Below, one piece after another: positions 1,595-17,945 of a stretch of 64,000 nt of DNA (its first letter is position 1; each line of letters starts with the position of its first letter). The stretch spans positions 1-64,000 of the forward strand of contig JAGATN010000022.1 in NCBI GenBank assembly GCA_017621225.1, in the 5' to 3' direction. The translations under genes and the position numbers were made by a program. Origin of the DNA: Muribaculaceae bacterium (lineage in GTDB: Bacteria; Bacteroidota; Bacteroidia; Bacteroidales; Muribaculaceae). The notes beneath the pieces were generated by a model, which was given only the letters and a program-made list of their open reading frames with translations, searched no databases and was not told the DNA's origin.

Positions 1595-1598
1595 ACAA

Positions 1599-1674: not shown

Positions 1675-1697
1675 AATAATCCCACTCTATTTTTGTG

Positions 1698-1836: not shown

Positions 1837-1866
1837 GGGTCACGCCCCATTTGGCATGACCCTGCT
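1833..1866 (-). terminator. Hairpin terminator of the TPR lipoprotein gene
   Basis: Ten-base perfect stem (1833-1842 with 1857-1866), 26 bases past the stop codon. The following T-tract is weak. Confidence 0.55.
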
Positions 1867-1891
1867 ACATTATATATCGTTATAGTATTAT

Positions 1892-3580
1892 TTACTTAAC
1901 GAGGTTAGAGATGTTGAACTTAGCAAATTCAAGGTCGTTAGCTGCAATCTTAGCGAATGAGTTGTCAAGCTTGATAGCCTGTGCAAGATTCGACGAAAGC
2001 ATCTGAGAGTTGTTGGTACGTGCACCGAGAATAGCCATCAGGTAGTAAGTAGTTGCATCGGGGTTCTTAACAGCCGAGAGGGTGTTCTTAGCCTTGCTGT
2101 AATCCTTGGTGAGGATCTGAGAAAGAGCGGCATTGTTGCTCTTGCTGTCGCCAAATGCCTTAACGGCAGCGGCAGCGTCACCCTGCTTGAGGTAGAACAC
2201 GCCAAGAGCGTCGTTAAGTTCCTTCAAACCACCGGCATTGCCGAAGCTGCGGTTAGCAGCAGCGTAGTCCTGGTTGAGGAGCGATACCAAACCGAGGTTC
2301 ATCTGAGCTTCTGCGCTCTGAGGAGCCAACTTGGCAGCCTGCTGGAAGCTCTTTTGAGCAGCAGCATAGTTCTTGGCGATGTACTGAGTCATACCGAGGT
2401 TGTTGAAGCCACGGAAGTCCTGAGGATAGATGCGAGTAGCAGCTTCGTAAATCTTCATCTTGCGGCCATTGTCTTCAGTAAGAGTGGCAGCATAAAGAAG
2501 TTCGTCAACGTTCAATGCCGAAGGATTGGTGTTGAAGTACTGGTTGATTTCAGCATCGCTCTTGCCGATTACGTTGATAGAAGCGGTAAGACGAGAGTAA
2601 CGGAGCTGAGGAAGGATGGTCTTAGCCAATTCGTCGAATACGTTTGACATATTGCGGATTTCGCGGTCGCGAACTTCGGGATCCTTGTACATCTTAAGAA
2701 CACTGAGGATAAGATCCTTGTCCTGGATATTGCTTGCTTCAACGAGCTTCTGGAAACCTTCCCAGTCTTCCGGAGTGAACTGAGCGGTGAGTTCACCGAA
2801 TTCAGTGATGTTTTCCTTTGCGAGAGTCTTTTCGAGGTAACCCTTGGTGTTCTTTTCACGCTTTTCGGCAAGCTGAGTGTTGAATGCATACGGACCGTCA
2901 GGTGAAGCGAACGACGAAATGTTAAGTTCTTCGATAACGCGAGAAGTGTCGGCGTTTGCATTGCGAACAGCTTCGTTCCAAGCCTTCATGGCATCAGAGT
3001 TGAGCTGATTTTCGCGAAGGTTTGCCACGTTGATAAGGAAGAGAATGTCAGCTTTGTACTTCTCGTTGATGATGCGCTGGAACTTGTCGGGAGCAAGTGC
3101 GGGGTTAACCGAACCTGCATCTGCCAAAGCAGCGGTAGCGATTACGCCATCAGCAACCTTGACGCGGGGAAGCACGTACTGCTTTTTGCCCTGCTTAACG
3201 TCGAAGTTAAGATAGAGTTCGCTCTTCATCATATCGGGAGTGTAAGCGAAATTCACGGGGATGGTCATATTGCCGCCACGGTTGTAGTTGATGACCGATG
3301 CGTTGCCACGCACCTTTTCGCCCTGGAAGGCAACGGGAGCCGAAGTGCTCTCTGTACCGGCATATACGAGTACGGGAGTAACTGTTACTTCAGCATTTTT
3401 CTTAAAGAACTTGGCGGGGATGTTGCCCGACACAGTGGCCGGAACTGAGGTTCCCACTACTTCAAGCGGATTAGGATTGGTAGTGAAGTAGTCAGCTTTA
3501 AACTGACCCATCTTCTTGCTACAACCTGTCATCACAAGCATCGCGCCCATTGCGAGGGCGAGCAAATTTGACTTTCTCAT
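1892..3580 (-). CDS. TPR-containing lipoprotein with an OmpA-like segment
   Basis: Outer-envelope lipoprotein of 562 residues. The signal sequence ends in a lipobox with Cys20 (MTGC). Residues about 30-150 look like beta-sandwich material. Around residues 170-260 there is a segment resembling an OmpA-type peptidoglycan-binding domain: the phrase SSFASPDGPYAFN followed by LAEKREKN matches the family's usual ASPDG...N..L...R pattern. Residues about 375-500 hold two or three TPR units rich in Ala and Asn. This suggests a periplasmic scaffold tethered to membrane and cell wall. The gene stands alone, divergent from speA, with its own TATATTTG promoter and hairpin terminator. The exact partner is unknown. 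The lipoprotein and TPR calls are secure; the OmpA-like call is moderate. Confidence 0.8.
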   Translation of the reverse strand: MRKSNLLALAMGAMLVMTGCSKKMGQFKADYFTTNPNPLEVVGTSVPATVSGNIPAKFFKKNAEVTVTPVLVYAGTESTSAPVAFQGEKVRGNASVINYNRGGNMTIPVNFAYTPDMMKSELYLNFDVKQGKKQYVLPRVKVADGVIATAALADAGSVNPALAPDKFQRIINEKYKADILFLINVANLRENQLNSDAMKAWNEAVRNANADTSRVIEELNISSFASPDGPYAFNTQLAEKREKNTKGYLEKTLAKENITEFGELTAQFTPEDWEGFQKLVEASNIQDKDLILSVLKMYKDPEVRDREIRNMSNVFDELAKTILPQLRYSRLTASINVIGKSDAEINQYFNTNPSALNVDELLYAATLTEDNGRKMKIYEAATRIYPQDFRGFNNLGMTQYIAKNYAAAQKSFQQAAKLAPQSAEAQMNLGLVSLLNQDYAAANRSFGNAGGLKELNDALGVFYLKQGDAAAAVKAFGDSKSNNAALSQILTKDYSKAKNTLSAVKNPDATTYYLMAILGARTNNSQMLSSNLAQAIKLDNSFAKIAANDLEFAKFNISNLVK

Positions 3581-3659
3581 AACTGATTTTTTTGTGTATA
3601 CGAAATGTTTATTTAGTTAAAACGATTGGCAGTGGGCATAGCCCCACAATTTGCAACTG

Positions 3660-3667
3660 CAAATATA
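3660..3667 (-). promoter_or_regulatory. -7 element of the TPR lipoprotein gene
   Basis: TATATTTG on the minus strand, 80 bases upstream of the ATG, is an exact match to the Bacteroidetes -7 consensus. An upstream TTG is present at a shorter than usual distance. Confidence 0.55.
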
Positions 3668-3772
3668 GTGATTTTTAACTTCACAACGGTTAACATACGC
3701 TAATTTTATATGCTTTTTAATGCAAAATTCAATTAAATCGCATAATGGGCACTCAAAATGATGAATAATGAC

Positions 3773-3780
3773 TAATTTTG
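3773..3780 (+). promoter_or_regulatory. -7 element of speA
   Basis: TAATTTTG matches TAnnTTTG and lies 79 bases before the speA ATG. No clear -33 TTTG is seen. Confidence 0.45.
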
Positions 3781-3859
3781 CTTTGTTTTAAGTCATAGTC
3801 ATAAACAACGACACTCATTTTTAATAAATACATCCAATAACTATTTCAATCTTTTGCCG

Positions 3860-5758
3860 ATGAGAAAATGGCGCATTGAAGACAGTGCTGAGCTGTACAA
3901 CATCAATGGTTGGGGAAGAAAATACTTCTCCATAAATGAAAAGGGGCACATTGCTGTAACCCCGCGCGAGGGATATGCCTCGGTCGACCTCAAAGAAATC
4001 ATGGACGAGCTTCAGGTTCGTGATGTCACGGCTCCGCTTTTGCTGCGATTTCCCGACATTCTCGACAACCGCATCGAAAAAATCTCCAATTGTTTCAAGC
4101 AGGCTGCCGAGGAATACAACTATCAGGCCCAGAATTTCATAATATACCCCATAAAGGTCAATCAAATGCGTCCGGTGGTGGAAGAAATAGTAAGCCACGG
4201 CCGTAAATTCAACATCGGACTCGAAGCCGGTTCGAAACCCGAGCTTCACGCCGTGTTGGCTACCAACATTGCCGACAACGCATTGATAATATGCAATGGC
4301 TACAAGGACGAGAAGTTCGTAGAGCTGGCGCTGTTGGCACAGAAGATGGGTCGGCGCATATATCTCGTGGTCGAAAAGATCAACGAACTGGTATTGATTG
4401 CCGACGTGGCAAAACGATTGAAGATATTGCCCAACATAGGCATCCGTATCAAGCTGTCGGCTTCGGGAGCCGGAAAATGGGAAGAATCGGGAGGCGACCA
4501 ATCGAAATTCGGCCTGAACTCGAGCGAATTGCTCGAAGCCCTCGACCTTCTGGAAAAGAACAAAATGGTCGACTGCCTGAAGCTCATACACTTCCACATC
4601 GGCAGTCAGGTCACAAAAATTCGCCGCATAAAGAATGCGCTTCGCGAAGCGACGCAATTTTACGTGCAGCTCTCGCGAATGGGCTTCAACATCGACTTCA
4701 TCGACATAGGAGGCGGCCTGGGCGTCGACTACGACGGCACACGCAACTCGGCATCCGAAAGCTCCATGAACTACTCGATACAGGAGTATGCCAACGACTC
4801 CGTGTCGGCGCTCGTGGATGCCTGCGAGAAAAACGGCATCAAGCAGCCCAACATAATAACCGAGAGCGGACGATCGCTCACCGCACACCACTCGGTGCTC
4901 GTGTTCGAGGTACTCGAAACCACTTCACTGCCCGAATGGAAAGACTCGGAAGAAACCGGGCCCGACGATCACGAGCTGGCGCGCGAACTTTACGAAATAT
5001 GGGATCGCCTCGATCAGCCGCGACTGTTCGAAAGCTGGCACGACGCCCTTCAGATACGCGAAGAAGCCCTCGACCTTTTCAGCCTGGGCATGCTCGATCT
5101 GCGCACGCGCGCACAAATCGAAAAACTGTTCTGGTCAATAGCGCGCGAAGTAGGAGACATAGCCAACGGCATGAAGCACGCGCCCGAGGAGTTGCGCAAG
5201 ATAGCAAAAATGCTCCCCGACAAATACTTCTGCAACTTCTCGCTATTCCAGTCGCTCACCGATTCATGGGCCATCGACCAGGTATTCCCGATAGTGCCCA
5301 TAAGCCGACTCGACGAAAAGCCCAACCGCACATGCTCGATACAGGACATAACCTGCGACAGCGACGGAAAGATATCGCACTTCATCACCAACCATGGCGT
5401 GACGTCGGCACTGCCCGTTCACTCCATCAAGCCCGACGAGCCATATTATTTAGGTGTATTCCTTGTGGGGGCATACCAGGAGATACTCGGCGACATGCAC
5501 AATCTGTTCGGCGATACCAATGCCGTGCACATAAGCGTGTACAAGGATCGCTACGAAATCGACCGCGTGATCGACGGCGAAACGGTGGCCGAAGTGCTCG
5601 ATTACGTGCAGTTCAACCCCAAGAAGCTCGTGCGCAACGTAGAGACATGGGTAACCGCCTCCATGAAATCGGGCAAGATATCGCCCGAAGAAGGACGCGA
5701 ATTCCTGAGCAACTATCGCTCGGGGCTATATGGCTATACGTATCTCGAAAAAGAATAA
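3860..5758 (+). CDS. speA: Biosynthetic arginine decarboxylase
   Basis: PLP-dependent enzyme that converts arginine to agmatine, the first step of the agmatine route to putrescine/spermidine. The 632-residue length and the MRKWRIED start are typical of Bacteroidales SpeA. The fold III barrel carries the PLP lysine in YPIKVNQ (K99), then HFHIGSQ, the glycine loop GGGLGVDYDG and ESGR. The C-terminal domain has CDSDG, which supplies the catalytic Cys/Asp at the dimer interface. I chose the ATG at 3860; a TTG two codons upstream is possible but the family starts at MRKW. truA follows after 18 bases, so the two are probably cotranscribed. The long open frames on the other strand and in the +2 frame here are shadows. 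Confidence 0.97.
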   Translation: MRKWRIEDSAELYNINGWGRKYFSINEKGHIAVTPREGYASVDLKEIMDELQVRDVTAPLLLRFPDILDNRIEKISNCFKQAAEEYNYQAQNFIIYPIKVNQMRPVVEEIVSHGRKFNIGLEAGSKPELHAVLATNIADNALIICNGYKDEKFVELALLAQKMGRRIYLVVEKINELVLIADVAKRLKILPNIGIRIKLSASGAGKWEESGGDQSKFGLNSSELLEALDLLEKNKMVDCLKLIHFHIGSQVTKIRRIKNALREATQFYVQLSRMGFNIDFIDIGGGLGVDYDGTRNSASESSMNYSIQEYANDSVSALVDACEKNGIKQPNIITESGRSLTAHHSVLVFEVLETTSLPEWKDSEETGPDDHELARELYEIWDRLDQPRLFESWHDALQIREEALDLFSLGMLDLRTRAQIEKLFWSIAREVGDIANGMKHAPEELRKIAKMLPDKYFCNFSLFQSLTDSWAIDQVFPIVPISRLDEKPNRTCSIQDITCDSDGKISHFITNHGVTSALPVHSIKPDEPYYLGVFLVGAYQEILGDMHNLFGDTNAVHISVYKDRYEIDRVIDGETVAEVLDYVQFNPKKLVRNVETWVTASMKSGKISPEEGREFLSNYRSGLYGYTYLEKE

Positions 5759-5776
5759 CCCAAAACACGCAAGCCG

Positions 5777-6529
5777 GTGCCACGATATTTCATGCATCTT
5801 GCCTACCGTGGAGCGCCATTCCACGGATGGCAGTCACAGCCCAACGCAGTGAGCGTGCAGTCGACAATCGAGCAAGCGCTGTCAACCATAATGCGCCGCC
5901 AAATAAAAATAACCGGTGCCGGGCGCACCGACACCGGGGTGAGCGCGCGCAAAATGGTAGCGCACTTCGACGTCGACCAACCGCTTTCCGACGAGCAAAA
6001 GACGGTGGTCGCCCTCAATTCGCTCGTGGGCCGCGACATCGCCATCTACTCCATAACGCGCGTCCATGACGACGCGCACGCGCGCTTCGACGCCACGTCG
6101 CGCACCTACCGCTATTTTGCCACCACCGTCAAGTCGCCATTTTTCCACACGTTGGCATGGCAAGCCTCTCCCCGCCTCGATTTCGAAGCCATGAATCGCG
6201 CGGCCGCCATTCTGCCCACGGTCAGCGACTTCACCTCGTTTGCCAAGCTACACTCCGACGCCAAGACCAACATATGCAAGGTGACCCGCGCATCGTGGAG
6301 CCCTATCGACGACAAAGGGTGGATGTTTGAGATAACCGCCGACCGATTTCTGCGCACCATGGTGCGCTCCATCGTAGGCACGCTCGTCGAAGTAGGGCGA
6401 GGAAAAATGTCGGAATCGCAGTTTCTCGACGTGATCAACGCCCGCAACCGATGCGAAGCCGGCACTTCGATGCCGCCGCAGGCACTTTATCTCTGGGACA
6501 TCACCTATCCGTATTATTCCACTTTATGA
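5777..6529 (+). CDS. truA: tRNA pseudouridine synthase A
   Basis: Makes pseudouridine at positions 38-40 of the tRNA anticodon stem-loop. The catalytic aspartate is Asp52 in GAGRTDTGVSA, and the N-terminus MPRYFMHLAYRG matches the first strand of the family. The length of 250 residues is normal. Translation starts with GTG; no ATG fits that keeps the first beta strand. It follows speA closely on the same strand and probably shares its transcript. Confidence 0.95.
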   Translation: MPRYFMHLAYRGAPFHGWQSQPNAVSVQSTIEQALSTIMRRQIKITGAGRTDTGVSARKMVAHFDVDQPLSDEQKTVVALNSLVGRDIAIYSITRVHDDAHARFDATSRTYRYFATTVKSPFFHTLAWQASPRLDFEAMNRAAAILPTVSDFTSFAKLHSDAKTNICKVTRASWSPIDDKGWMFEITADRFLRTMVRSIVGTLVEVGRGKMSESQFLDVINARNRCEAGTSMPPQALYLWDITYPYYSTL

Positions 6530-6642
6530 AACTATATTCATAAAACTCATACACAATTACGAAAATAATGCTTAACTTTAAGGCTGCATAGCCCATATGC
6601 ATCACAACGACCGGAAAAACTATAAACCCTAACACATAAGAG

Positions 6643-9231
6643 ATGAAAAAGAATTTTGCACTTTCGCTTGCCATCGGCATCATCATGATACCGGCATTAG
6701 CGTATGCATCCTCAAAATCCGAGAATGCAGGCAAGCGCGCCAAGGCGCTCGACAACACGCTTTGGAATCAGTCGGAATGGATTTCAGTTGCCAATGCGCC
6801 GGTGGTAACGGGGCCGATATCCGGAACTAACGAGCGCGCCGCCGATGGTGCCGGATGGTTCGTTTCGACCGTCAAAAACGACAAGAAAGTAACTTCGGCA
6901 CGATGGATGACCACCGGATTGGGCGTTTACGACTTGTTTGTAAACGGCAAAACCATAGGCGATGAGGTGCTAAAACCCGGCTTCACCCACTACGCCAAGA
7001 CCAAACGCTCATTTACATACGACGTTACCGATGCCATCTCGAAAAAGCCCGGTGCCGAAAACGTATTTGCCGTACAGGTCACTCCCGGATGGTGGGCCGA
7101 CAAAATCATAACCCCCGGCGGAATCGACGGAATGATAGGCAAAAAAGTGGCATTTCGTGGCGTACTTGAACTCACGTTTGCCGACGGCACAAAAAAATGC
7201 TACGGCACCAACACCACCGATTGGAAAGCAGGCATAGCCGGCCCGGTGACACATGCCGACATATTCGACGGCGAGGAATACGATGCGCGCATCAAGCCCG
7301 GATATCTTACTCCCGAAAAATTGTCGAAACCCGAAATCAACAACGAGTTCAACGGCGAGATATTACCGTCGGAAGGTGCCGAGATATATCTGCGCAACGA
7401 CCTTGCCATGACTCCGCAAAAGGCATACATATGGAAAGGCGTTACGGGCAACACCGACGATGCTTTCGGCAAAGTGACCATAACCAAGGAATTTGCCCCC
7501 GGCCAGGAAATAGTACTGCAACCGGGCGAAAACTTGGTTGTCGACTTCGGCCAGAACAGCTCGGCCGTACCTGAATTCGTATTCGCTGCAAAAGAGGGAA
7601 CGAAGCTTCGCTTCCTCCCTTCCGAGATACTCAACGACGGCAACGGCGCGAAAAGCCGTGGCATGGACGGCCCCGAGGGTAGCGTTCACCGCCTGAGCCT
7701 GCGCACTCCCGACATAGCCTTCAGAGCCGACTACACATTCGCCGGCAACGACGGATACGTAACGTATCAGCCCCGATACACCTTCTTCGGCTACCGCTTC
7801 GCCTCAATAACGGCCGACAACGAAGTACGCATCAAATCAATCAAATCGATTCCGGTAACCTCCATAGCCCAAGACCTGGAGATAGGCAAAATAACTACCG
7901 GAAACGATATGATAAACAAACTGATATCGAACACCATGTGGGGCATGCGCTCAAACTATCTGTCGGTGCCCACCGACTGCCCGCAGCGCAACGAACGCCT
8001 CGGATGGACAGGCGACACCCAGGCATTTGCCGAAACCGGCTCATTCTTCGCCCGCACCTCCGACTTTTTCCATAAATGGCTACGCGACATGCGCGACACT
8101 CAAACCGAAGAAGGCGCTTATCCCGGCGTGGCTCCAAGCGCACAATACGGCAGCAACGAAGTGGGCCGCGTGGGATGGTCTGACTGCGGCATCATAGTGC
8201 CCTGGACCATGTGGAAACAATTCAACAACACCAAAGTGATCGACGAAAACTGGGATGCCATGGAAAAATACATCAACTTCGGCGCACCCCACAAATTCGA
8301 TCACTCCGCCCTCAAGCACATCAACGGCAATTTCCAATGGGCCGACTGGCTCAGCTACGAACCCCTCGAAAGCTGCAGCGGCAAATATTGGATGCAAAAA
8401 GATGGTCAGAACGTAGTAAATCCCGATGCGCTGGAATACTGGAGCTTCCTTTGGGGCTGCTACTGGCACAGCAACTCGGAAATGATGCGCGACATGGCAA
8501 AAGCCACCAACCGCAATGCCGACAAATACGTTGCCATGGAGCTCGAATCGAAGAATTATCTCAAAGACCGCTTTCTCAACGAGGACGGCACATTTAAGAC
8601 CGAAATACTCAACACCATGCAGACTCCGGCACTGTTCGCTCTCCGCAACAATCTCGTCGAGGGAACGGCAAAGGACAACATGATCAAACGTCTTCGCCAA
8701 AACTTCGCCGACCACGGAAACTGCCTGCAGACAGGCTTTCTCGGCACCTCCATCCTCATGCCCACGCTAACCGAAAACGGCATGAACGACGTAGCCTACG
8801 AGCTGCTTTTCCAACGCAAAAATCCCAGCTGGCTGTACTCGATCGACAATGGAGCCACCACCATATGGGAACGCTGGAACAGCTACATGATTGAGCACGG
8901 CATGGGCCCGCAAGGCATGAACAGCTTCAACCACTACGCTTACGGATGCGTATGCGAGTGGATGTGGGAAACCATGGCCGGAATATCGTCAGACACATCG
9001 GCCCCCGGCTTCAAACGCATAATCATGAAACCCGTTCCCGACAAGCGCCTGGGCTTCGTGAAAGCTGAATACGCCTCTGCCGCCGGCCTCATCAAGAGTC
9101 ACTGGAAATACGACGGCGACAAGTGGATATGGAAATTCACCGTACCCAAGGGTGCCGTGGCCGAAGTGACGCTACCCGGCGAAACCGAATCAAAAGAATA
9201 TAAATCAGGTTCATACACCATAGTACGATAA
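6643..9231 (+). CDS. Alpha-L-rhamnosidase, GH78
   Basis: Exported glycosidase that removes alpha-L-rhamnose from plant polysaccharides or glycosides. There is a signal peptide (about residues 1-22, MKKNFALSLAIG...AYA). N-terminal beta-sandwich domains follow (about 30-400), then the (alpha/alpha)6 catalytic barrel, which begins with the GH78 signature DCPQRNERLGWTGD at residues 445-458. Glu743 in TTIWERWNSY is a likely catalytic acid/base, and a C-terminal beta domain follows. The length (862) is usual for the family. It stands alone between truA and purF, with a strong hairpin behind it and no SusC/SusD partner. Confidence 0.93.
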   Translation: MKKNFALSLAIGIIMIPALAYASSKSENAGKRAKALDNTLWNQSEWISVANAPVVTGPISGTNERAADGAGWFVSTVKNDKKVTSARWMTTGLGVYDLFVNGKTIGDEVLKPGFTHYAKTKRSFTYDVTDAISKKPGAENVFAVQVTPGWWADKIITPGGIDGMIGKKVAFRGVLELTFADGTKKCYGTNTTDWKAGIAGPVTHADIFDGEEYDARIKPGYLTPEKLSKPEINNEFNGEILPSEGAEIYLRNDLAMTPQKAYIWKGVTGNTDDAFGKVTITKEFAPGQEIVLQPGENLVVDFGQNSSAVPEFVFAAKEGTKLRFLPSEILNDGNGAKSRGMDGPEGSVHRLSLRTPDIAFRADYTFAGNDGYVTYQPRYTFFGYRFASITADNEVRIKSIKSIPVTSIAQDLEIGKITTGNDMINKLISNTMWGMRSNYLSVPTDCPQRNERLGWTGDTQAFAETGSFFARTSDFFHKWLRDMRDTQTEEGAYPGVAPSAQYGSNEVGRVGWSDCGIIVPWTMWKQFNNTKVIDENWDAMEKYINFGAPHKFDHSALKHINGNFQWADWLSYEPLESCSGKYWMQKDGQNVVNPDALEYWSFLWGCYWHSNSEMMRDMAKATNRNADKYVAMELESKNYLKDRFLNEDGTFKTEILNTMQTPALFALRNNLVEGTAKDNMIKRLRQNFADHGNCLQTGFLGTSILMPTLTENGMNDVAYELLFQRKNPSWLYSIDNGATTIWERWNSYMIEHGMGPQGMNSFNHYAYGCVCEWMWETMAGISSDTSAPGFKRIIMKPVPDKRLGFVKAEYASAAGLIKSHWKYDGDKWIWKFTVPKGAVAEVTLPGETESKEYKSGSYTIVR

Positions 9232-9259
9232 GCTCGACGAAAAGTCGACCCGACATTAT

Positions 9260-9293
9260 GCGGGGGAGCACCAAAATTAAGGCGCTCCCCCGC
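9260..9293 (+). terminator. Strong hairpin after the GH78 gene
   Basis: Ten-base perfect GC-rich stem (GCGGGGGAGC at 9260-9269 with 9284-9293), 28 bases past the stop. It lacks a T-tract, so it may act as a transcript-stabilising or weak terminator hairpin. Confidence 0.5.
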
Positions 9294-9314
9294 TGTGCAT
9301 AATGCAAATTTTAG

Positions 9315-9322
9315 TATATTTG
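9315..9322 (+). promoter_or_regulatory. -7 element of purF
   Basis: TATATTTG lies 24 bases before the purF ATG and is an exact match to the Bacteroidetes -7 consensus. Confidence 0.5.
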
Positions 9323-9346
9323 CCGCCAAATTTTAGGTTTTAACCG

Positions 9347-11233
9347 ATGGAACAACTAAAGCATGAATGCGGCATAGCGCTGATACGCCTGCTCAAGCCG
9401 CTTGAATACTACAAAGAGAAGTACGGGTCATACTGTTACGGGCTCAGCAAACTCTATCTTTTGATGGAAAAACAGCACAACCGAGGACAAGAAGGTGCAG
9501 GGATAGGAGTCGTAAAACTAAAAACAAAACCCGGAAACGAATATTTGTTCCGTGAACGAGCATTGGGCACCGGAGCCATCCAGGAAATATTCGACAAGAT
9601 ACGCCCCGTGCTCAAAGCCAACGACGTAGAAAACGGCCCGGCCGACAGAGTGGAAGAATACGCCCCCTTCATAGGTGACATATACATGGGCCACCTGCGA
9701 TACAGCACTACCGGAAAAAGCGGCATCAACTACGTCCACCCGTTTCTGCGACGCAACAACTGGCCATCGCGCAACCTCATGATGTGCGGCAACTTCAACA
9801 TGACCAACGTGTCGGAGATATTCGAGTCGATAGTGCAACGCGGACAGCATCCCCGACTTTACAGCGACACCATAGTGCTGCTCGAACAGCTCGGCTATGC
9901 CCTCGACAAAGAGAATCACCGTATATACCGTCAGTATCGCGACACCCTCTCCGAACCCGAACTGACTCGCAAGATAGAAGACAACCTCGACATCACCGAA
10001 ATGCTGCGATTTGCCGGCCCTACGTGGGATGGCGGATTCGTGATATGCGGCGCAACAGGCTCGGGCGACATGTTTGCCCTGCGCGACTCGCACGGCATCC
10101 GACCCGCATTCTATTACCACGACGACGAGATAGTGGTCGTGGCATCCGAACGCCCTGTGATACAAACTGTCATGAACGTTCGCCTTTCGGAGGTCAAGGA
10201 GCTGACGCCCGGATCGGCCATAATAGTCAACAAGTCAGGCAACGTTTCAATCACCGACATACTCGGCGAAAAAGAAAACGCCAGATGCTCGTTTGAGCGC
10301 ATATACTTTTCGCGAGGCAGCGACGCCGACATCTATCGCGAACGCAAAGCCCTCGGGCTCAACCTCGTGCCGTCGATACTCGAAAGCATAGGCTACGACC
10401 TCAACCACGCCGTATTCTCATTCATACCAAACACGGCCGAAGTGGCTTTCATAGGCATGGTCGAAGGGCTTGAAAAATACCTCGATCAGCTCAAAGCCGA
10501 CAAGATTCTCGCAGCAAGCGCCACCGGAAAGCTCGACAACGATTCGTTGCTCGAAATAATGTCAAACAAGCTCAGAATCGAAAAGATAGCCATAAAGGAC
10601 ATAAAGCTGCGCACATTCATAGCCGAAGGAGAGGCACGCAACGACCTTGCCACTCACGTTTACGACGTGACTTACGGATGCGTGACCGACAATGTCGACA
10701 CGCTCGTAGTGATCGACGACAGCATAGTGCGCGGCACCACGTTGCGTCAAAGCATATTGCGCATTCTCGACCGCCTCTGCCCGAAGAAGATAGTAGTGGT
10801 TTCATCGTCGCCCCAAGTGCGCTACCCCGACTACTACGGCATCGACATGTCGCGAATGGGCGAGTTCATAGCTTTCAAAGCAGCCGTCGAGCTACTTCGC
10901 GAAAAAGGCATGGAGCAGATACTTCACGACACCTACCAACGATGCAAAGCGCAAGCATCGCTTCCCGACGATAAGATAGAAAATTGCGTAAAATCGATAT
11001 ATGCGCCATTCTCGCAACAAGAGATATCCGACAAGATAGCCGAAATGCTTACGCCCGCCGACACTAACGCCGAAGTCGAAATAATATATCAGACCGAAAA
11101 GGGCCTGCGACTCGCCGTTCCCAACAATCCCGGCGACTGGTATTTTTCAGGCAACTACCCTACCCCGGGCGGCATACGCCTCGTCAACCAGGCATACATA
11201 AACTATTACGAAGGCAACGCCGACAAGCGCTAA
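9347..11233 (+). CDS. purF: Amidophosphoribosyltransferase (PurF-type)
   Basis: First committed step of purine synthesis: glutamine plus PRPP gives phosphoribosylamine. The N-terminal class II glutamine amidotransferase domain has its nucleophile at Cys8 (HECGIA), so seven residues must be cut off to free the N-terminal cysteine; a propeptide of this kind is known in Bacillus PurF. GHLRYSTTG lies in this domain. The C-terminal phosphoribosyltransferase domain has the PRPP loop VVIDDSIVRGTT from about residue 454. At 628 residues it is longer than E. coli PurF, as is usual for the Bacteroidales version. It has its own promoter and a hairpin terminator. Confidence 0.93.
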   Translation: MEQLKHECGIALIRLLKPLEYYKEKYGSYCYGLSKLYLLMEKQHNRGQEGAGIGVVKLKTKPGNEYLFRERALGTGAIQEIFDKIRPVLKANDVENGPADRVEEYAPFIGDIYMGHLRYSTTGKSGINYVHPFLRRNNWPSRNLMMCGNFNMTNVSEIFESIVQRGQHPRLYSDTIVLLEQLGYALDKENHRIYRQYRDTLSEPELTRKIEDNLDITEMLRFAGPTWDGGFVICGATGSGDMFALRDSHGIRPAFYYHDDEIVVVASERPVIQTVMNVRLSEVKELTPGSAIIVNKSGNVSITDILGEKENARCSFERIYFSRGSDADIYRERKALGLNLVPSILESIGYDLNHAVFSFIPNTAEVAFIGMVEGLEKYLDQLKADKILAASATGKLDNDSLLEIMSNKLRIEKIAIKDIKLRTFIAEGEARNDLATHVYDVTYGCVTDNVDTLVVIDDSIVRGTTLRQSILRILDRLCPKKIVVVSSSPQVRYPDYYGIDMSRMGEFIAFKAAVELLREKGMEQILHDTYQRCKAQASLPDDKIENCVKSIYAPFSQQEISDKIAEMLTPADTNAEVEIIYQTEKGLRLAVPNNPGDWYFSGNYPTPGGIRLVNQAYINYYEGNADKR

Positions 11234-11251
11234 AACATCTAACACATAATA

Positions 11252-11293
11252 GAAAGAGGATGCACCAAACTTTATATTGGCACATCCTCTTTC
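11252..11293 (+). terminator. Terminator of purF
   Basis: Eleven-base perfect stem (11252-11262 with 11283-11293), with an additional CCAA/TTGG inner pairing and a short T/A tract after it. It may serve both purF and the convergent lipoprotein gene. Confidence 0.65.
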
Positions 11294-11323
11294 TTATAAT
11301 TGCATATTCGTTATACCGCCGTG

Positions 11324-11794
11324 TTAGTTCTTGTTGAAAACCAAGACACCATCATTGCAGTATACATTGAGTATATTTCCGGTACGTACATATCTACGAG
11401 TCCACAATACGGTATTTGAGCTTCCGGGGAACAACATGGTAGTCTTGTCGCCCGATATGTAGCTGACTCTGAGTATATCGTTGCCATTAGAATCAGAAGT
11501 TGTCGACCAACTGAACTTCATAGTGTAAGTTTTATGCGTGGAAGCTCTTGACTCAGACGTCAATTCTTCTACAATCTCGCCGCTATTGTCTTTATTGAAT
11601 TTCAAAGTCATTTTAACGGACGTCCTGATGTCACCATCATCCGAATCATAGACTTCTTCTAACGTCCAATACCCTACAAGTCCATTTGATGAGATCGGTT
11701 CATCATCATCATCATCACCCCCGCAAGACGAAAATACGACAGGGATAAACATCAATGCAAGCAACATTGATAACAATTTGATTTTCTTTGTCAT
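11324..11794 (-). CDS. Small lipocalin-like lipoprotein
   Basis: A predicted lipoprotein of 156 residues. The signal sequence MTKKIKLLSMLLALMF ends in the lipobox SSC, followed by GGDDDDDE, an acidic tract of the kind that sends Bacteroidetes lipoproteins to the cell surface. After it comes LVGYWTLEEVYDSDDG, the usual first strand of small lipocalin-like domains, and about eight predicted beta strands ending in NVYCNDGVLVFNK. I chose the ATG at 11794 because the signal peptide begins there; an upstream ATG at 11839 would add a non-native 15-residue leader. It is AT-richer than its neighbours. The ligand is unknown. Confidence 0.75.
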   Translation of the reverse strand: MTKKIKLLSMLLALMFIPVVFSSCGGDDDDDEPISSNGLVGYWTLEEVYDSDDGDIRTSVKMTLKFNKDNSGEIVEELTSESRASTHKTYTMKFSWSTTSDSNGNDILRVSYISGDKTTMLFPGSSNTVLWTRRYVRTGNILNVYCNDGVLVFNKN

Positions 11795-11839
11795 AATTAT
11801 TTTTCTGAGCAATGTTAATAATCTGATCTTAGTGCTCAA

Positions 11840-12107
11840 TTCATCAGACCAGACCGCTTCCGACTCTCAAGAAGCATACTGAAATTCATATACAAGAGCC
11901 TATGTCAGTAGCTCCATACATCCTTGGCAAATCCCCGATTTTCATATATCGAAAGATTTTGATGGATATTTGGAATACGCATTGTCAAATGTTGACATTA
12001 ATGTATCTAACTTTCTTATATTGGAGGGTGATCGGCAATTAGAGGTTTGTTTCATTAATATCTTCTCAGATCGTATAGGCTCTCCGGATTCCGACTGACT
12101 GGTTTAT
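11840..12107. other. Gene-free stretch next to the RNA candidate
   Basis: No supported protein gene. The only pattern is a small palindrome, TGTCAA-ATG-TTGACA at 11983-11997, which could be an operator. No coding bias is visible in any frame. Confidence 0.4.
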
Positions 12108-12405
12108 AAAAAAAATAGCGTGAAGGCCTGAATCTGTTGCCCTTCCCACCTGTAGAGGCTCTCGCATTGCCCATTGGAGTAGAAAGAGCAACGCCGAAGC
12201 CTCACGCTGTATGATGAAGTACAGCCAACTCATCACTGAGCTGTCAGTAATAATCATACCCGAAAGACATCTACCGTTGCTACATTCTCGACTCCAATAA
12301 CGAATTTGCGAGATTCCTACAGGTCAAGAATTAGCGTAAGATAAACGCTATATAATATGTCTCAATCCCCGCCCACGCCCACTTCGAGCTTCGGCGAGAG
12401 ATATT
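12108..12405 (-). ncRNA. Putative structured non-coding RNA of unknown class
   Basis: About 295 bases on the minus strand with a transcription unit layout and no convincing reading frame. Upstream is a promoter (GTTG, 20 bases, TATATTTG). At the 3' end an outer helix (12202-12208 with 12117-12123) is followed by eight T on the minus strand. Inside lie several perfect or near-perfect stems: TAGCGT/ACGCTA (12332-12337 with 12345-12350), TATGAT/ATCATA (12210-12215 with 12253-12258) enclosing ACTGA/TCAGT with a four-base loop (12235-12248), and a seven-pair stem (12164-12170 with 12188-12194). It has none of the conserved words I know for RNase P RNA, tmRNA, or SRP RNA. The alternative is a decayed gene, but nested stems plus a promoter and terminator argue for an RNA. 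Confidence 0.5.
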
Positions 12406-12410
12406 GACCA

Positions 12411-12442
12411 CAAATATAAAAACATTTCTTTATAAATGCAAC
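12411..12442 (-). promoter_or_regulatory. Promoter of the putative RNA
   Basis: The minus strand carries GTTG (12439-12442), a 20-base spacer and TATATTTG (12411-12418). The -7 element is perfect, the -33 has one mismatch, and the spacing is exact. It points into a region without a protein gene. Confidence 0.6.
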
Positions 12443-12563
12443 CCTCATTTTGGATTTTATTAATATTTCGCAATGTAATTCATTGTATCACAATATCGTC
12501 ATTTCGTCAGCGTTAATGGGTAGTTACACCGTTTTTGGACGTTCCATCGATACATAACGAAAA

Positions 12564-12602
12564 CGGCACGACTTTCCCGCCATCGCAGGCAAAGTCGTGC
12601 CG
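12564..12602 (-). terminator. Bidirectional terminator after the thioredoxin lipoprotein gene
   Basis: Twelve-base perfect stem (12564-12575 with 12591-12602), followed by TTTTC on the minus strand and CTTTTTCT on the plus strand. Confidence 0.75.
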
Positions 12603-12625
12603 AATCTTTTTCTAAAGGCCGAGGA

Positions 12626-13123
12626 TTATTCAGCGGGCAATTTGCCGGCAAGAACGTTTTCGACCAACTGAGTGAACTGTTCTTCAGTCATTGAACCTAC
12701 TTGCTTTGCAGTAGAGCCGTCAGGCATTATTATGGAAATCTGAGGTATCGACTGAACGCCAAACTGCTTGGTTATAGTGGGCCATTGGTCGACGTTGACA
12801 GATGCAAACGTAACCTTTCCGGCATACTTTTCGGCTACCTTATGGAACACGGGCTTGAACTGCATGCAGGGACCGCACCATGTTGCCCAGAAATCTATCA
12901 TCAACGGTTTTTCCTTATAATCGGCGAGATTGGTCGAATCGGTAAATTCGGCTACCGCCACTTCAACGGCCGTTGCCGGAACCAATTCTGCGGCCTCTAC
13001 GGTTTCTTCCGTTTCAGTAGTTTCAGCTGTCTCGGCATTCGACGATGACGACGACGAACATGCCATGAACCAAACTGAAGCGCAGCCCACGGCTGCAATC
13101 ATTGCTAAACGAGCTATTTTCAT
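12626..13123 (-). CDS. Thioredoxin-fold lipoprotein
   Basis: A membrane-anchored thiol-disulfide oxidoreductase of 165 residues. The lipobox cysteine is Cys22, followed by a serine run and a Glu/Thr-rich linker to about residue 60. The thioredoxin fold then carries the redox motif WATWCGPC (Cys83, Cys86) and the cis-proline loop QSIPQ. It probably works in the periplasm in reduction or repair of secreted proteins. It follows the flavin reductase gene by 21 bases on the same strand, so the two are likely one operon ending at the bidirectional terminator. Confidence 0.88.
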   Translation of the reverse strand: MKIARLAMIAAVGCASVWFMACSSSSSSNAETAETTETEETVEAAELVPATAVEVAVAEFTDSTNLADYKEKPLMIDFWATWCGPCMQFKPVFHKVAEKYAGKVTFASVNVDQWPTITKQFGVQSIPQISIIMPDGSTAKQVGSMTEEQFTQLVENVLAGKLPAE

Positions 13124-13144
13124 AATTTCAAATATTAATGTTGT

Positions 13145-13654
13145 CTATTTATCATTGTCGTCGACCCACGCCCCCACTATCTTACCTATGTAACGATAAT
13201 GGAAATCGCCCTCATACCAACGATCGATTATCGATTTGTCGATGAAGGCATCGGGGTTAAATCGGTCGACATAAATTTTTTCGCACTCAATCACAAGCTT
13301 GGCGCCCTTGAATGTCAACGAGCCCGAAGGCAACTCAACGGCCTCGAGCCCCGGATAGTGCATCTTGTCGATGTCGCGACCGCTTTTGGTGCCCATTGCG
13401 GTGAGCAGCGGCTTCATCGAATCGGGGAAAAACGACATGGTAAACCGATCGTTGCTTTCGATGAACTCGTTGGTATATCGCTGCGGCCTGATCACTACTT
13501 CGGCCACATCCATACCCCACATTTCGCCCATCATGCCCCAACTTGCGGTCATGGTGTTAAACCGGTCAATCGATCCTGCCGTCACGAGCATCCAATCCTT
13601 CGATATGAGCTTGATTAAATTTTCTTTTATGTCAGTCGGCTTTATTTCTGTCAT
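13145..13654 (-). CDS. Flavin reductase family protein (flavoredoxin-like)
   Basis: A 169-residue FMN-binding split-barrel protein. Residues LVTAGSIDRFNTMTASWGMMGEMW match the flavin-binding N-terminal strand and loop of the flavin reductase-like family, and VVIRPQRYTNEFI with FTMSFF follows in the usual order. Such proteins bind FMN and move electrons between NAD(P)H or ferredoxin and flavin acceptors; the particular partner is not known. It is the first gene of a probable two-gene unit with the thioredoxin lipoprotein, which suggests a redox role. Confidence 0.82.
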   Translation of the reverse strand: MTEIKPTDIKENLIKLISKDWMLVTAGSIDRFNTMTASWGMMGEMWGMDVAEVVIRPQRYTNEFIESNDRFTMSFFPDSMKPLLTAMGTKSGRDIDKMHYPGLEAVELPSGSLTFKGAKLVIECEKIYVDRFNPDAFIDKSIIDRWYEGDFHYRYIGKIVGAWVDDNDK

Positions 13655-13689
13655 ATACTTGTATGGTTAAATATCCGGCCTGAATGATG

Positions 13690-13741
13690 CAAAAAAATTA
13701 TGCGCCGGAACGTCATTGATTACAACGAATATCCCGGCGCA
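13690..13741 (-). terminator. Terminator of mdh
   Basis: Eight-base GC-rich perfect stem (TGCGCCGG 13701-13708 with 13734-13741). On the minus strand it is followed by TAATTTTTTT. Confidence 0.75.
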
Positions 13742-13774
13742 AATGTTTTATTTCAAGCTAAAAAGCCCCATTTA

Positions 13775-14704
13775 TCAGCAAGGAAGTGCTGAATTGGTTT
13801 TGTGTACGGCTTCGGCGCTCTTGTGGAACAATTCGAGTTCTTCGGCGTTGAGATCGAATTCAACGATTTTCTCGATACCGTTGCGACCAAGTATGCAGGG
13901 AACACCGATGCAAAGGTCTTTTTCGCCATATTCGCCGTCGAGCAATGCCGAGCAAGTGATCATGCGCTTCTGATCATGCAACACGGCAGCTACTACCTGT
14001 GCGGCAGCGGCACCCGGAGCAATCCAAGCAGAAGTACCGAGCAACTTTGTCAGCGTAGCGCCACCCACCATAGTGTCGGCGGCCACCTTTGCAAGCTGAT
14101 CGGCCGGCATAAGAGTCGATGCGGGTATGCCACGATAAGCGGCGTAGCGGGTAAGAGGTATCATGGTAGTGTCGCCGTGACCACCTATTACGATGCCTTC
14201 TATTTCGGCAACGGGAGCATTGAGAGCCAAGCTCAAGAAATATTTGAAACGAGCGCTATCCAATGCACCACCCATACCGATCACGCGGTTTTTGGGAAGG
14301 CCGTAAGTCTTATGGATAAGATATGTCATGGTATCCATCGGGTTGGCAACGCATACTATTATGGCATTGGGCGAATGCTTGAGAACGTTGTCGGTAACCG
14401 ACTTTACGATTCCAGCGTTCACGCCTATAAGCTCCTCGCGAGTCATGCCCGGCTTGCGGGGAACGCCCGAAGTGATGACTACGACGTCGCTGTCGGCTGT
14501 TTTTTCATAATCGTTCGTAACGCCTACTAGACGAGTGTTGGTGTTGAGTATGTTGGCAGTCTGCATAATGTCCATGGCTTTGCCTTCCGACAAACCTTCC
14601 TTAATGTCGATCAACACAACCTCGTCGGCTATACTTTGCGTAACCAATACATTGGCACAAGTGGCACCTACGTTACCGGCGCCCACAACTGTTACTTTTG
14701 ACAT
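13775..14704 (-). CDS. mdh: Malate dehydrogenase
   Basis: NAD-dependent interconversion of malate and oxaloacetate, used in the reductive branch to fumarate and succinate in these anaerobes. The LDH-like type of 309 residues shows the Rossmann start VTVVGAGNVGATCA, the substrate loop SGVPRKPGMTREEL, and the catalytic histidine in VIGGHGDTTM. It is a single-gene unit with a TAATTTTG promoter and a hairpin terminator. Confidence 0.96.
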   Translation of the reverse strand: MSKVTVVGAGNVGATCANVLVTQSIADEVVLIDIKEGLSEGKAMDIMQTANILNTNTRLVGVTNDYEKTADSDVVVITSGVPRKPGMTREELIGVNAGIVKSVTDNVLKHSPNAIIVCVANPMDTMTYLIHKTYGLPKNRVIGMGGALDSARFKYFLSLALNAPVAEIEGIVIGGHGDTTMIPLTRYAAYRGIPASTLMPADQLAKVAADTMVGGATLTKLLGTSAWIAPGAAAAQVVAAVLHDQKRMITCSALLDGEYGEKDLCIGVPCILGRNGIEKIVEFDLNAEELELFHKSAEAVHKTNSALPC

Positions 14705-14744
14705 AGTGATTATTGTATTAATGAGTTTATTTCAATAACTTTTG

Positions 14745-14752
14745 CAAAATTA
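14745..14752 (-). promoter_or_regulatory. -7 element of mdh
   Basis: TAATTTTG on the minus strand, 41 bases upstream of the mdh ATG, fits TAnnTTTG. No clear -33 element. Confidence 0.5.
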
Positions 14753-14813
14753 ATGAATAATCCTTAATTCTCTATTTTTTAACCATTTTTAATCTCAATG
14801 CCCGCACGTGCAC

Positions 14814-16814
14814 TCATTCGGTGGCATTGACCCACACCGTCATGGCCTTGCCGGGGCCACGGTTACACCATGAGTAGTAGGGCACTAACGTAACGGCATC
14901 GGCTCCGCCGCCCATCTTTATCTGTTTCAGGCCCGACAATATGCCCGAACCTATCTCCGATACTTCGGCCGATGTGGCCGCGCTCACCGCAACTGACTTT
15001 TCGCGCACCGACGGGCCGTTGTCGATTTCTTCGGCACAATACACGAGCGGACCGCGAGTCACGGCCACCTTTCCCCTGTTTTCGGCCACCTTGTCGATGC
15101 ATCGCACCACGTTGACAGGCATCGGAAGCACGAGCTCAACATTGTCGCCCTCCTTCCATTTCCGGTCGATTACGGCAAAGCCCTTCTCCATTTTATATTT
15201 CACGCGTTTGCCGTTTACGCGAATCTCCACGTTGGCGTCGTTTCGGTTTTCATACGAATACATGCCTCCGGGAACAAACCGATAGGCCGATGTCCAGGTG
15301 GGTATGCGAAGATGCAACGAAAAGCGTGACTTCTTTGCCGGATTCAAACGTAGGCTCACGTTGCCGTCAAACGGATATTGCGAGGTCTGCAGCACGTCAA
15401 CATCGGTTCCGGCCACCGGCACGGTTGTGCGGCTTCCGCCGTATAGCGTCACGAACAGTTTGTCGTCGTCATACGAATACATATAGCCCGGCACCTGAAG
15501 TATCAGGCGCGAAATGTTTGGCGGACAGCACGAACATCCAAACCAAGGGGCACGTCCCCCCTGCCCTACATTGAATTTAAACTCACCGTCGGCTTCGAGA
15601 GGATTTACGTAGAAGAAGCTGTTGCCGTCGAGTCCTACACCCGCCAGCGCATTGTTATATAGCGACAGCTCGGCAATGTCGAGGAATTTGGCATCGCCGC
15701 TGGCCAGATACATGCCGAAATTGAAAAACACATTGGCCACGGCAGCACACGTTTCGTTGTAAGCCGTGAGGTTGGGCAGCTCATAAGGCGCGCCGAAACC
15801 CTCCACTCCGGCCACGGCACCGAGGCCTCCGGTTATATGCATTCGCGTCGACACCAAATTCGACCATATGCTGTTGAGCGCATTGTCATAGTCGCCCAGT
15901 CGGGTAAGCGCATCCACTTGAGCCATTGCGGTATACAGATAGGCGGCACGGACGGCATGCCCCACGGCCTCGGTCTGCTCCCTTACCGGCAGATGCTGCT
16001 GCGCATAAGTAGCCGACATCACTCCCGTGCCGTCGGTGTGGAACGTCACGCCGCGTATGTCGAGAAACTTTTTAGCCATGTCGAGATAAAGCTTGTCGCC
16101 CGTAACACGATAAAGCTTGCAGAGAGCAAGCTCTATTTCTTCATGGCCGGGAGCCTGCATCACCGGCTTCCCGTCGTTGTATTTCGGATTTCCACCCTTA
16201 AAAAACACTTCGTTCACGTGCTTGGCATTTTTTATGCATACGTCGAGCAGACGCCGCTTGCCGGTGGCCTGATAATAAGCCACGGCAGCTTCGTAGAGAT
16301 GCCCCACATTATACAATTCATGGCTGTGAAGCACGTAGCTGTATGGCTTGGGGCCCATCTCATCGACGTTCGGATTGCCGCACGTGTGCGATATGTACAG
16401 ATACCCGTCATCCTCCTGTGCCGCCGCTATCAGTTCGATGGTCTCGTCCATGAACGACTCCAGACGCTCGTTGCGTTCAAGCATCAGCGAATATGCCACG
16501 CCTTCCATCACCTTATACATATCGGAACTTATGAAACGGTGCGTTTCGGGCAACTCCGTTGGCTTGCCGGCCCTGAAGGCGGCCGCACGACGGAAACGCT
16601 CTACGGCGGGAGCGCATTGCTCTACCGAAAACGGCACGGTGACGCGCAGCTCCGTGGCCATGCGATGCTTCCAGAAACCGTCGGTAAGCGTAACTTCGTT
16701 AAACGGCATCGGAGTAATGCCGCCAACGTCATTTGACGCTCCAACCTGCGCTGCCGATGCCGACACGCCGATGGCAAACAACAACTTAGCCAACTTTTTC
16801 GCTTTCATACTCAT
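14814..16814 (-). CDS. GH127 family glycosidase (beta-L-arabinofuranosidase-like)
   Basis: An exported hydrolase of 666 residues with signal peptide (about 1-26). It belongs to the former DUF1680 family, which releases beta-L-arabinofuranose from plant glycans. The family's zinc-thiolate site is present: Glu354 and Cys356 in YNETCAAV, and Cys429-Cys430 in FGCSCCPPN; the second of the paired cysteines is the nucleophile in characterised members. An (alpha/alpha)6 barrel precedes C-terminal beta-sandwich domains. It sits 27 bases downstream of ychF on the same strand, so transcription may read through from there. Substrate is inferred from the family, which also has members with other specificities. 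Confidence 0.9.
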   Translation of the reverse strand: MSMKAKKLAKLLFAIGVSASAAQVGASNDVGGITPMPFNEVTLTDGFWKHRMATELRVTVPFSVEQCAPAVERFRRAAAFRAGKPTELPETHRFISSDMYKVMEGVAYSLMLERNERLESFMDETIELIAAAQEDDGYLYISHTCGNPNVDEMGPKPYSYVLHSHELYNVGHLYEAAVAYYQATGKRRLLDVCIKNAKHVNEVFFKGGNPKYNDGKPVMQAPGHEEIELALCKLYRVTGDKLYLDMAKKFLDIRGVTFHTDGTGVMSATYAQQHLPVREQTEAVGHAVRAAYLYTAMAQVDALTRLGDYDNALNSIWSNLVSTRMHITGGLGAVAGVEGFGAPYELPNLTAYNETCAAVANVFFNFGMYLASGDAKFLDIAELSLYNNALAGVGLDGNSFFYVNPLEADGEFKFNVGQGGRAPWFGCSCCPPNISRLILQVPGYMYSYDDDKLFVTLYGGSRTTVPVAGTDVDVLQTSQYPFDGNVSLRLNPAKKSRFSLHLRIPTWTSAYRFVPGGMYSYENRNDANVEIRVNGKRVKYKMEKGFAVIDRKWKEGDNVELVLPMPVNVVRCIDKVAENRGKVAVTRGPLVYCAEEIDNGPSVREKSVAVSAATSAEVSEIGSGILSGLKQIKMGGGADAVTLVPYYSWCNRGPGKAMTVWVNATE

Positions 16815-16841
16815 ATATGGGTTTCGAGGGGTGGGAGGGGG

Positions 16842-17945
16842 TTACACGTTAAACAGGTAATGCATTATGTCGCCATCCTGCACCACATAATCTTTTCCTT
16901 CTATGCTCATCTTTCCGGCGGCGCGTACGGCAGCCTCGTTGCCAAGCGACACATAGTCGTCATATTTTATCACCTCGGCACGTATGAAGCCTTTTTCGAA
17001 ATCGGTATGTATTATTCCGGCACACTTGGGGGCCTTGCTGCCACGCATGAAGGTCCATGCCCTCACCTCGTCGGGGCCGGCCGTGAAATATGTCTGAAGG
17101 TCGAGCAACGAGTATGCGGCTCTGATGAGTCGCGAAACGCCCGATTCCTCAAGACCTATCGAAGCCAAAAACTCCTGTCGATCCTCATAGGTGTCGAGCT
17201 CGGCTATTTCGGCCTCAGTTTGTGCGGCCACCACCAATATCTGCGCATTTTCACTCTTAACAGCTTCACGCACCGCATCGACATATGCGTTTCCGGTAGC
17301 TGCCGATGCGTCGTCGACATTGCACACGTAAAGCACCGGCTTATTGGTCAACAGAAACAAGTCATGGGCAAAACGTTGCTCGTCGACGGTTTCAAATTCA
17401 ACCGAGCGCGCGGGCAGCCCCTGATCGAGAGCTTCCTTATACTTGCACAGCACTTCGTATTGCATCTTGGCCACCTTGTCGCCGCCGGTCTGCGCCTGCT
17501 TTTGCGTACGAGCCATTCGGCCCTCAATGGTCTCGAGGTCCTTGATGAGCAATTCGTAGTCTATTATCTCCTTATCGCGCACCGGGTTCACCGATCCGTC
17601 AACGTGGGTTATGTTATCGTCATCGAAGCATCGGAGCACGTGTATTATCGCGTCGGTCTCGCGAATGTTTGCAAGAAATTTGTTGCCGAGACCTTCGCCA
17701 CGGCTTGCGCCCTTCACCAATCCGGCTATGTCGACAATCTCAACCGTAGCGGGAACCACGCTACGCGGCTTGCACATGTCGACGAGTTTCGTAAGTCGGT
17801 CGTCGGGAACGGTTATCACGCCCACGTTGGGCTCTATGGTGCAGAACGGAAAGTTGGCTGACTGTGCTTTGGCATTCGACAAGCAATTGAACAAAGTGGA
17901 CTTTCCGACATTCGGCAATCCCACTATACCACATTGAAGCGACAT
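16842..17945 (-). CDS. ychF: Redox-regulated ATPase YchF
   Basis: Obg-family P-loop NTPase that prefers ATP and binds the ribosome; linked to oxidative stress responses. Length 367 is standard. The P-loop is GLPNVGKST (residues 9-17), switch and G3 region DIAGLVKGAS, a coiled-coil insertion around 130-160, and a C-terminal TGS domain ending MHYLFNV. Its promoter shows TAAATTTG with a 20-base spacer to GTTG. Confidence 0.97.
   Translation of the reverse strand: MSLQCGIVGLPNVGKSTLFNCLSNAKAQSANFPFCTIEPNVGVITVPDDRLTKLVDMCKPRSVVPATVEIVDIAGLVKGASRGEGLGNKFLANIRETDAIIHVLRCFDDDNITHVDGSVNPVRDKEIIDYELLIKDLETIEGRMARTQKQAQTGGDKVAKMQYEVLCKYKEALDQGLPARSVEFETVDEQRFAHDLFLLTNKPVLYVCNVDDASAATGNAYVDAVREAVKSENAQILVVAAQTEAEIAELDTYEDRQEFLASIGLEESGVSRLIRAAYSLLDLQTYFTAGPDEVRAWTFMRGSKAPKCAGIIHTDFEKGFIRAEVIKYDDYVSLGNEAAVRAAGKMSIEGKDYVVQDGDIMHYLFNV

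Follow-up and report, generated by a model that had tools for sequence, protein, structure and literature searches.

Does a strongly folded segment between two genes of a gut bacterium encode an RNA of its own, or is it the beginning of a longer transcript? The segment lies on the minus strand of the window, that is, the whole stretch of 64,000 nucleotides analyzed here (positions 1 to 64,000 of contig JAGATN010000022.1 from a Muribaculaceae bacterium). The initial annotation, made from the sequence alone, had described it as a stand-alone structured RNA in a protein-free gap. Its features are collected in Table 1.

The window locus and its RNA family

The promoter GTTG-20-TATATTTG that had been read on the minus strand is present at 12442-12411, with TATATTTG presumably serving as a Bacteroidetes-type -7 element. 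A strongly folded RNA of ~298 nt followed by eight T, as previously proposed, was also found. The 311-nt minus strand folded at -116.2 kcal/mol, compared with a shuffle mean of -86.9 (SD 5.35, n = 100; z = -5.48), and 0 of 100 shuffles folded as well as the window RNA. The window U-run was absent from the output of a simple terminator scan, which is limited to loops of 3-8 nt; the present loop exceeds that size. A clean intrinsic-terminator-like hairpin of 18 pairs was observed at 11251-11294, between the lipoprotein gene and a gene that we take to be purF-like. The gene for the 156-aa lipoprotein-like protein is likely the second gene of the window unit.

Table 1. Features of the locus (window positions)
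Feature	Position	Strand	Pairing partner or basis
GTTG upstream promoter element	12439..12442	-	TTG at the matching place in 98/165 copies
TATATTTG, presumed Bacteroidetes-type -7 element	12411..12418	-	20 bases after GTTG
Leader RNA, predicted start to U-run, ~298 nt	12108..12405	-	fold z; 35-copy alignment A1
5' domain, likely small hairpin/pseudoknot, length variable	12361..12405	-	weak covariation, one pair
Closing helix P0	12345-12351 (H1 5' arm with flanking AT) with 12115-12121	-	compensatory counts
Hairpin H1	12333..12349	-	5' arm alternatively in P0
PK1, H1 loop strand TTTATC	12340..12345	-	pairs with GGTAGA 12270-12275
Hairpin R, 5' strand	12323..12330	-	pairs with 12285-12292 (state B); 96.1% of cells paired
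P1, 5' strand	12317..12323	-	pairs with 12149-12155 (state A)
TCTCGCA	12307..12313	-	pairs with TGCGAGA 12160-12166 (rod)
P2, 5' strand	12291..12298	-	pairs with 12173-12180 (rod)
Rod tip hairpin, hypervariable	12209..12259	-	fold and alignment
Terminator 5' arm	12182..12207	-	12188-12193 alternatively in rod
Terminator 3' arm with strand S adjoining U-run	12118..12146	-	paired-cell counts
U-run	12108..12117	-	eight T at 12115-12108
Hairpin D, 3' of U-run	12070..12095	-	family-wide D-S test
37-aa frame at usual start distance	11942..12055	-	without Pfam match
156-aa lipoprotein-like protein	11324..11794	-	without Pfam match

The statement that the segment holds no usable frame stood in part. 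Frames are not kept between copies, and a 63-aa frame (12257-12066, minus strand) nevertheless spans the 3' half of the RNA and continues beyond the U-run. A protein gene was rejected on the ground that frames are not preserved: of the 588 internal gaps counted in 128 pairs of related copies, 525 have lengths not divisible by three. No conserved short frame of a leader-peptide attenuator was found in the 3' 225 nt of the same 128 pairs (63 of 588 gaps being multiples of three). Long open frames are commoner than chance, occurring in 84 of 193 copies with 29.2 expected from shuffles, a surplus that we attribute, without proof, to composition.

The RNA had not been assigned to any known RNA class, and this agrees with searches of Rfam 15. 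The element gave no match at gathering score when window positions 8000-17000 were searched, and it remained unmatched in a permissive search of positions 12030-12450 (421 bases) up to E 10 and in the loci of 20 divergent copies. A known family was ruled out on the basis of these negative searches of the window and the 20 copies. The sole Rfam matches, all outside the element, were a tRNA and a sub-threshold DUF805b. The DUF805b match (L109:1042-1077, minus strand; 28.4 bits, gathering score 35.6) lies >400 nt downstream of the RNA.

The suggestion of a new RNA family was borne out both by homologs and by strong compensatory changes. BLAST with the segment gave matches in 29 of the genus's 34 genomes, at up to 16 places per genome. 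A covariance model of the 3' 99 positions (R1, briefly calibrated) found matches in 178 of the 198 genomes that made up the sample of the window's family, covering 29 of 30 genera, with a maximum of 17 matches per genome when up to 20 candidates were scored. In a sample of the order, R1 at a threshold of E 0.001 matched 55 of 295 genomes, representing 38 of 184 genera; four of these 295 are themselves members of the window's family, and chance may account for the weakest matches. Of 296 genomes sampled across the phylum, none but the genome of the window itself passed E 1e-5, so R1 is specific. The RNA occurs at three places in that genome. Among the matches listed from a pattern scan, named cultured carriers include Segatella copri iAQ1173, Paraprevotella xylaniphila YIT 11841, Prevotella sp. 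P5-50, and Xylanibacter rodentium. The RNA was found by profile in three of five viral contigs carrying the pattern, and one copy lies on an unverified phage scaffold. Two Phocaeicola plasmids gave a partial BLAST match, the copy on the plasmid of P. dorei CL06T03C03 starting at model position 68.

Matches reaching the 3' end numbered 214, and 196 were retained after identical ones were dropped. Subsets of these copies comprised 174 with a called gene and sufficient DNA downstream, 162 in the long alignment, 150 in the energy test, and 193 in the D-S test. Four of the 196 copies are in records titled Firmicutes, Lachnospiraceae (two), and Eubacteriales, and these are taken for misbinned contigs.

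Cis position and alternative folds

The nearest downstream gene lies on the same strand in 167 of 174 copies. Its start codon is located a median of 59 nt (quartiles 49-79) past the U-run, and at most 120 nt past it in 147 of the 167. The nearest upstream gene is co-directional in 98 of 141 copies. Of 190 copies, 164 have the motif TAnnTTTG at 225-400 nt upstream of the end of the U-run; a control window at 625-800 nt contained it in 12 of 182, so the promoter element is above chance. Between the U-run and the start codon, it was detected in only 1 of 162 copies. The idea of a stand-alone RNA in a protein-free gap did not survive this comparison, which establishes the cis position and indicates that the RNA is the 5' leader of the next gene, not a stand-alone gene. 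From the sequence comparison, the segment is evidently one copy of a real, large family of cis-acting leaders without an Rfam 15 match.

The nearest called gene is on the opposite strand in seven of the 174 copies, L173 among them. In L173, the RNA is broken off just after CACG (after 2148, RNA strand), and an opposite-strand transposase-like protein, which by its looks we take to be of the IS110 type, lies 36 nt on. Contigs L008 and L071 stop 127 nt beyond the RNA, perhaps from a cause similar to that of the break in L173. Contig ends were considered as a sign of strain variation and set aside, since 6 downstream and 1 upstream among 80 loci (within 150 nt) are too few.

Two sets of helices were evaluated in 35 copies. 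State A consists of P0, P1, the TCTCGCA helix, P2, and the GCAACG/CGTTGC helix, in which the rod's GCAACG (12275-12280) pairs with 12188-12193, part of the terminator 5' arm. In this state, 92.3% of cells were paired, compared with 36-49% in slid controls, and 197 double-change cells were counted, compared with 62.8 in shuffles (covariation 0.440 versus 0.151). P1 was paired in 97.6% with all four Watson-Crick pair types and reached E values down to 2.8e-8 under a tree-based null. The TCTCGCA/TGCGAGA helix was paired in 99.6% with double-sided changes in 4 of 7 pairs, and P2 in 76.3% with double-sided changes in 7 of 8 pairs.

State B consists of H1 with PK1, hairpin R, and the terminator. Here, 94.2% of cells were paired (slid controls, 42-46%), with 30 double-change cells compared with 11.5 in shuffles and a covariation of 0.218 versus 0.179. 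The base helix of the terminator was paired in 99.2% of cells and its upper helix in 86.7%. All six pairs of PK1 were formed in 126 of 156 copies. Its variable positions change together, CT occurring with AG 31 times and TC with GA 20 times, never crossed, while GG goes with both by wobble.

A covariation check of the kind suggested for this RNA yielded 12 column pairs at E < 0.05 in 162 copies under the tree-based null, which consisted of 12 simulated alignments from our own script. Nine of these, complementary in at least 80% of copies, are located in P1, its neighbor helix, and P2; complementarity is partial or absent in the remaining three. Helices other than these three failed the tree-based null in the 162 copies, and the terminator, P0, R, and PK1 are supported by counts outside that null. 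In a partner-swap test, P0 gave a weak difference (own 0.929, swapped 0.904).

States A and B are mutually exclusive because their helices share or cross strands: P0 and the terminator base use one 3' strand, the rod and the terminator use one GTTGC, and hairpin R crosses P1. Comparison of the copies bears out both helix sets, and we regard the comparative evidence for two alternative folds as good.

Energies calculated for the window copy were -112.3 kcal/mol for the rod, -112.0 with P0 forced, and -105.4 with nine terminator pairs forced, which places states A and B 6.9 kcal/mol apart. When more terminator pairs were forced, the rod was favored by a median of 16.7 kcal/mol in the 150 copies tested of the 162 aligned, and by 16.8 in the window copy. 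The rod was at most 1 kcal/mol from the optimum in 129 of the 150. Hairpin R is missing from the computed rod state as a consequence of the nested model, and this is not evidence. In view of the median advantage of the rod, the terminator cannot win at equilibrium according to nearest-neighbor energies, and termination would need kinetics (early formation of hairpin R), a ligand, or a protein factor.

Complementarity between the D loop and strand S reached a score of at least 14 in 115 of 193 own pairs, compared with 23% with swapped partners, and at least 16 in 78 of 193, compared with 10.8%. The D-S pairing is thus established across the family by comparison; in the window copy, it is imperfect, consisting of AGGC/GCCU and a short further stretch. 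A conserved hairpin between the U-run and the start codon that pairs with the terminator strand also contradicts the earlier picture of a stand-alone RNA. Since D is made after the terminator, it cannot decide termination and needs another role, such as in translation or stability.

We consider it probable that these RNAs are a family of structured Bacteroidales 5' leaders that control the gene behind them in cis through transcription attenuation. Of the readings considered, that of a portable and riboswitch-like attenuator leader appears best, with a termination switch as its most likely role. The computed preference for the rod, the late formation of hairpin D, the limitation of tree-based support to the rod helices, and the seven copies with an opposite-strand gene weigh against this reading. 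We infer the identity of the on state, the occurrence of termination, and the sensing and nature of a signal as follows. Transcription would start directly after TATATTTG. In state B, the off state, R would stay closed, the terminator arms would pair, and RNA polymerase would stop at the U-run. In state A, the on state, both halves of R would pair with a later strand to give a long rod that absorbs the terminator 5' arm. The freed 3' arm would then pair with the H1 arm (P0) and with the D loop beyond the U-run, and the gene would be transcribed. A ligand, a protein, or the folding rate would choose between the two states.

The leader might instead be controlled by a protein or the ribosome, with an incidental U-run and with D-S pairing governing translation of the next gene. 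The location of hairpin D between the U-run and the start codon, its conservation as a pairing, and the rod as computed ground state are consistent with this. However, translation control alone needs no terminator helix directly before the U-run, where the base is paired in 99.2% of cells, and we rate this explanation as considerably less probable than attenuation.

It is unlikely that the copies are stand-alone, trans-acting small RNA genes of a multicopy-sRNA-like family that lie before genes by chance and end at the U-run. A same-strand gene within a tight range of distances in 167 of 174 copies, a gap without the promoter element in 161 of 162, and a conserved hairpin past the U-run that pairs back all argue against it, despite the promoter and U-run of the window locus itself and the high copy number per genome (up to 16 places by BLAST, up to 17 matches with R1). 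Multicopy sRNAs such as FopS are known in Bacteroides according to the available part of PMC11697453, which would fit such a family.

Downstream genes and leader histories

The 178 first genes fell into 133 clusters, 107 of them singletons. Pfam domains among the 102 of 178 first genes scanned belonged to 49 families, the commonest of which was found in 3. Control of a single pathway, as is typical of riboswitches, was not observed among these 178 first genes and 133 clusters. They include BspA-like repeat proteins, CsgG-like and other exported proteins, a Dam methylase, one UpxY antiterminator match, and regulators that we take to be LytTR-like. Signal-peptide-like starts are enriched (80 of 167 versus 63 of 260, by a crude score of our own), and the set is not defined by them. 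The first genes of L180, L171, L128, and L164 form one cluster of short proteins resembling what are presumably lone LytTR domains. Those at L065:1649-1927 and L126:4053-4322 look like radical SAM target peptides with Cys-Xaa-Xaa-Xaa repeats; the NCBIfam model for this repeat has 2 members among the 102, and the two loci were assigned to it by their Cys-rich sequence.

In L246, a contig from a viral collection, the leader RNA (11425-11768, minus strand) precedes BrxP, BrxC, PglZ, and BrxL (1386-11347), a BREX operon presumably of type 4. BrxP is also found behind the leader in L127 (Prevotella sp. P5-50) and L006 (390 nt away, frame as called). A regulon of defense genes was rejected as a general rule, as PADLOC, applied to 102 of the 178 first genes, gave single members per model among the best 25 of 48.

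Copy pairs with leaders at least 80% identical mostly have unrelated flanks on both sides. Two pairs (L248/L249 and L250/L251) share the upstream flank and leader and differ downstream. In the first, one locus in two related genomes (L248:9893-10193 and L249:9613-9962), the leader and a further 54 nt are kept, the first frames are unrelated (84 versus 98 aa), and the second genes match at 92% identity, which places the swap precisely between the leader and the second gene. In the second, homology ends at the U-run, and one contig stops 101 nt later. For 71 leaders, the gene behind them has a relative within the set, and in 52 of these cases the most similar leader stands before an unrelated gene. 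For example, the proteins of L067 and L034 are 80% identical and their leaders 73%, whereas the leaders of L067 and L010 are 89% identical. These comparisons indicate that leaders and genes do not share a history.

Among 25 pairs at least 86% identical with a called promoter, leader homology ends at -10 to +59 of the U-run in 21, starts within ~20 nt of the promoter element in 7, and extends >300 nt further upstream in 3. Because these boundaries are non-uniform, a defined mobile element is not claimed. Synteny via the neighboring thioredoxin gene was abandoned; it was found at E 1e-30 in 14 of 34 genus genomes, and the others, at 38-52% identity, were too distant for an empty site to be recognized.

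We tentatively propose that the leader could be a portable module, exchanged as a unit between loci and species, that places hundreds of unrelated Bacteroidales accessory genes under one common signal, with the first gene swapped in a cassette-like manner. Its targets, no more certain than the module itself, might be surface proteins, small variable first genes, methylases, and the BREX defense operon. A mobile DNA element (MITE-like or a cassette site) whose structure serves recombination, with gene control secondary, is very improbable, since orientation and distance to the gene are fixed, the promoter is conserved, the folds are single-stranded with alternatives, and homology boundaries vary between leader pairs, even though near-identical leaders between unrelated flanks, the replacement of a first gene between an identical leader and a conserved second gene, and the 52 of 71 leaders nearest to that of an unrelated gene are in keeping with it.

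Transcription attenuation by a cis-acting leader, if it applies to these copies, would be a common regulatory layer invisible to genome annotation, with multicopy structured leaders in 178 of 198 sampled genomes of a dominant mouse-gut family. The leader family may bring to light a tier of gene regulation in gut bacteria that has been overlooked. If one signal governs all copies, one RNA-seq comparison would be enough to expose a regulon beyond the reach of any shared protein domain. The mismatch between leaders and genes would be a natural experiment on the exchange of regulatory RNA independent of genes.

Comparison with known systems

The family resembles riboswitches and attenuator leaders in its 5'-leader position (167 of 174 copies), in the structure that comes first, in two exclusive conserved folds, rod and terminator (35 copies), and in the U-run before the gene. 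It differs from them in its ~300 nt with a pseudoknot, in genes without a common pathway, and in a hairpin past the U-run that pairs back; a ligand is putative. EAR and put, for example, are processive antitermination RNAs, leaders that promote read-through of terminators. The present leaders would similarly favor read-through of a terminator, but here the terminator lies inside the element, and many of the units resemble single genes or short operons.

No such RNA is named in the accessible portions of the literature searched, PMC10994844 included, and for PMC8040213 this refers to its text. As far as its available text goes, PMC8040213 reports thousands of motifs, for example HMP2_1881, a 108-bp motif of Bacteroidetes near radical SAM genes that is expressed in 13/13, and fragments of the present family may already be in its motif lists. 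HMP2_1881, compared by description, is alike in coming from Bacteroidetes, and some copies of the present family also precede radical SAM genes; it has a third of the family's length (PMC8040213, in part).

With the Bacteroides sRNAs FopS and GibS, as described in the part of PMC11697453 at hand, the present family shares a Bacteroidales-type promoter, many copies per genome, and a terminator-like 3' end. The same source describes FopS as trans-acting, with a single-stranded 5' stretch and one terminator hairpin. The present family is unlike FopS (PMC11697453, in part) in being large, folded, and in cis, and these differences in size, fold, and position place it outside the FopS sRNAs.
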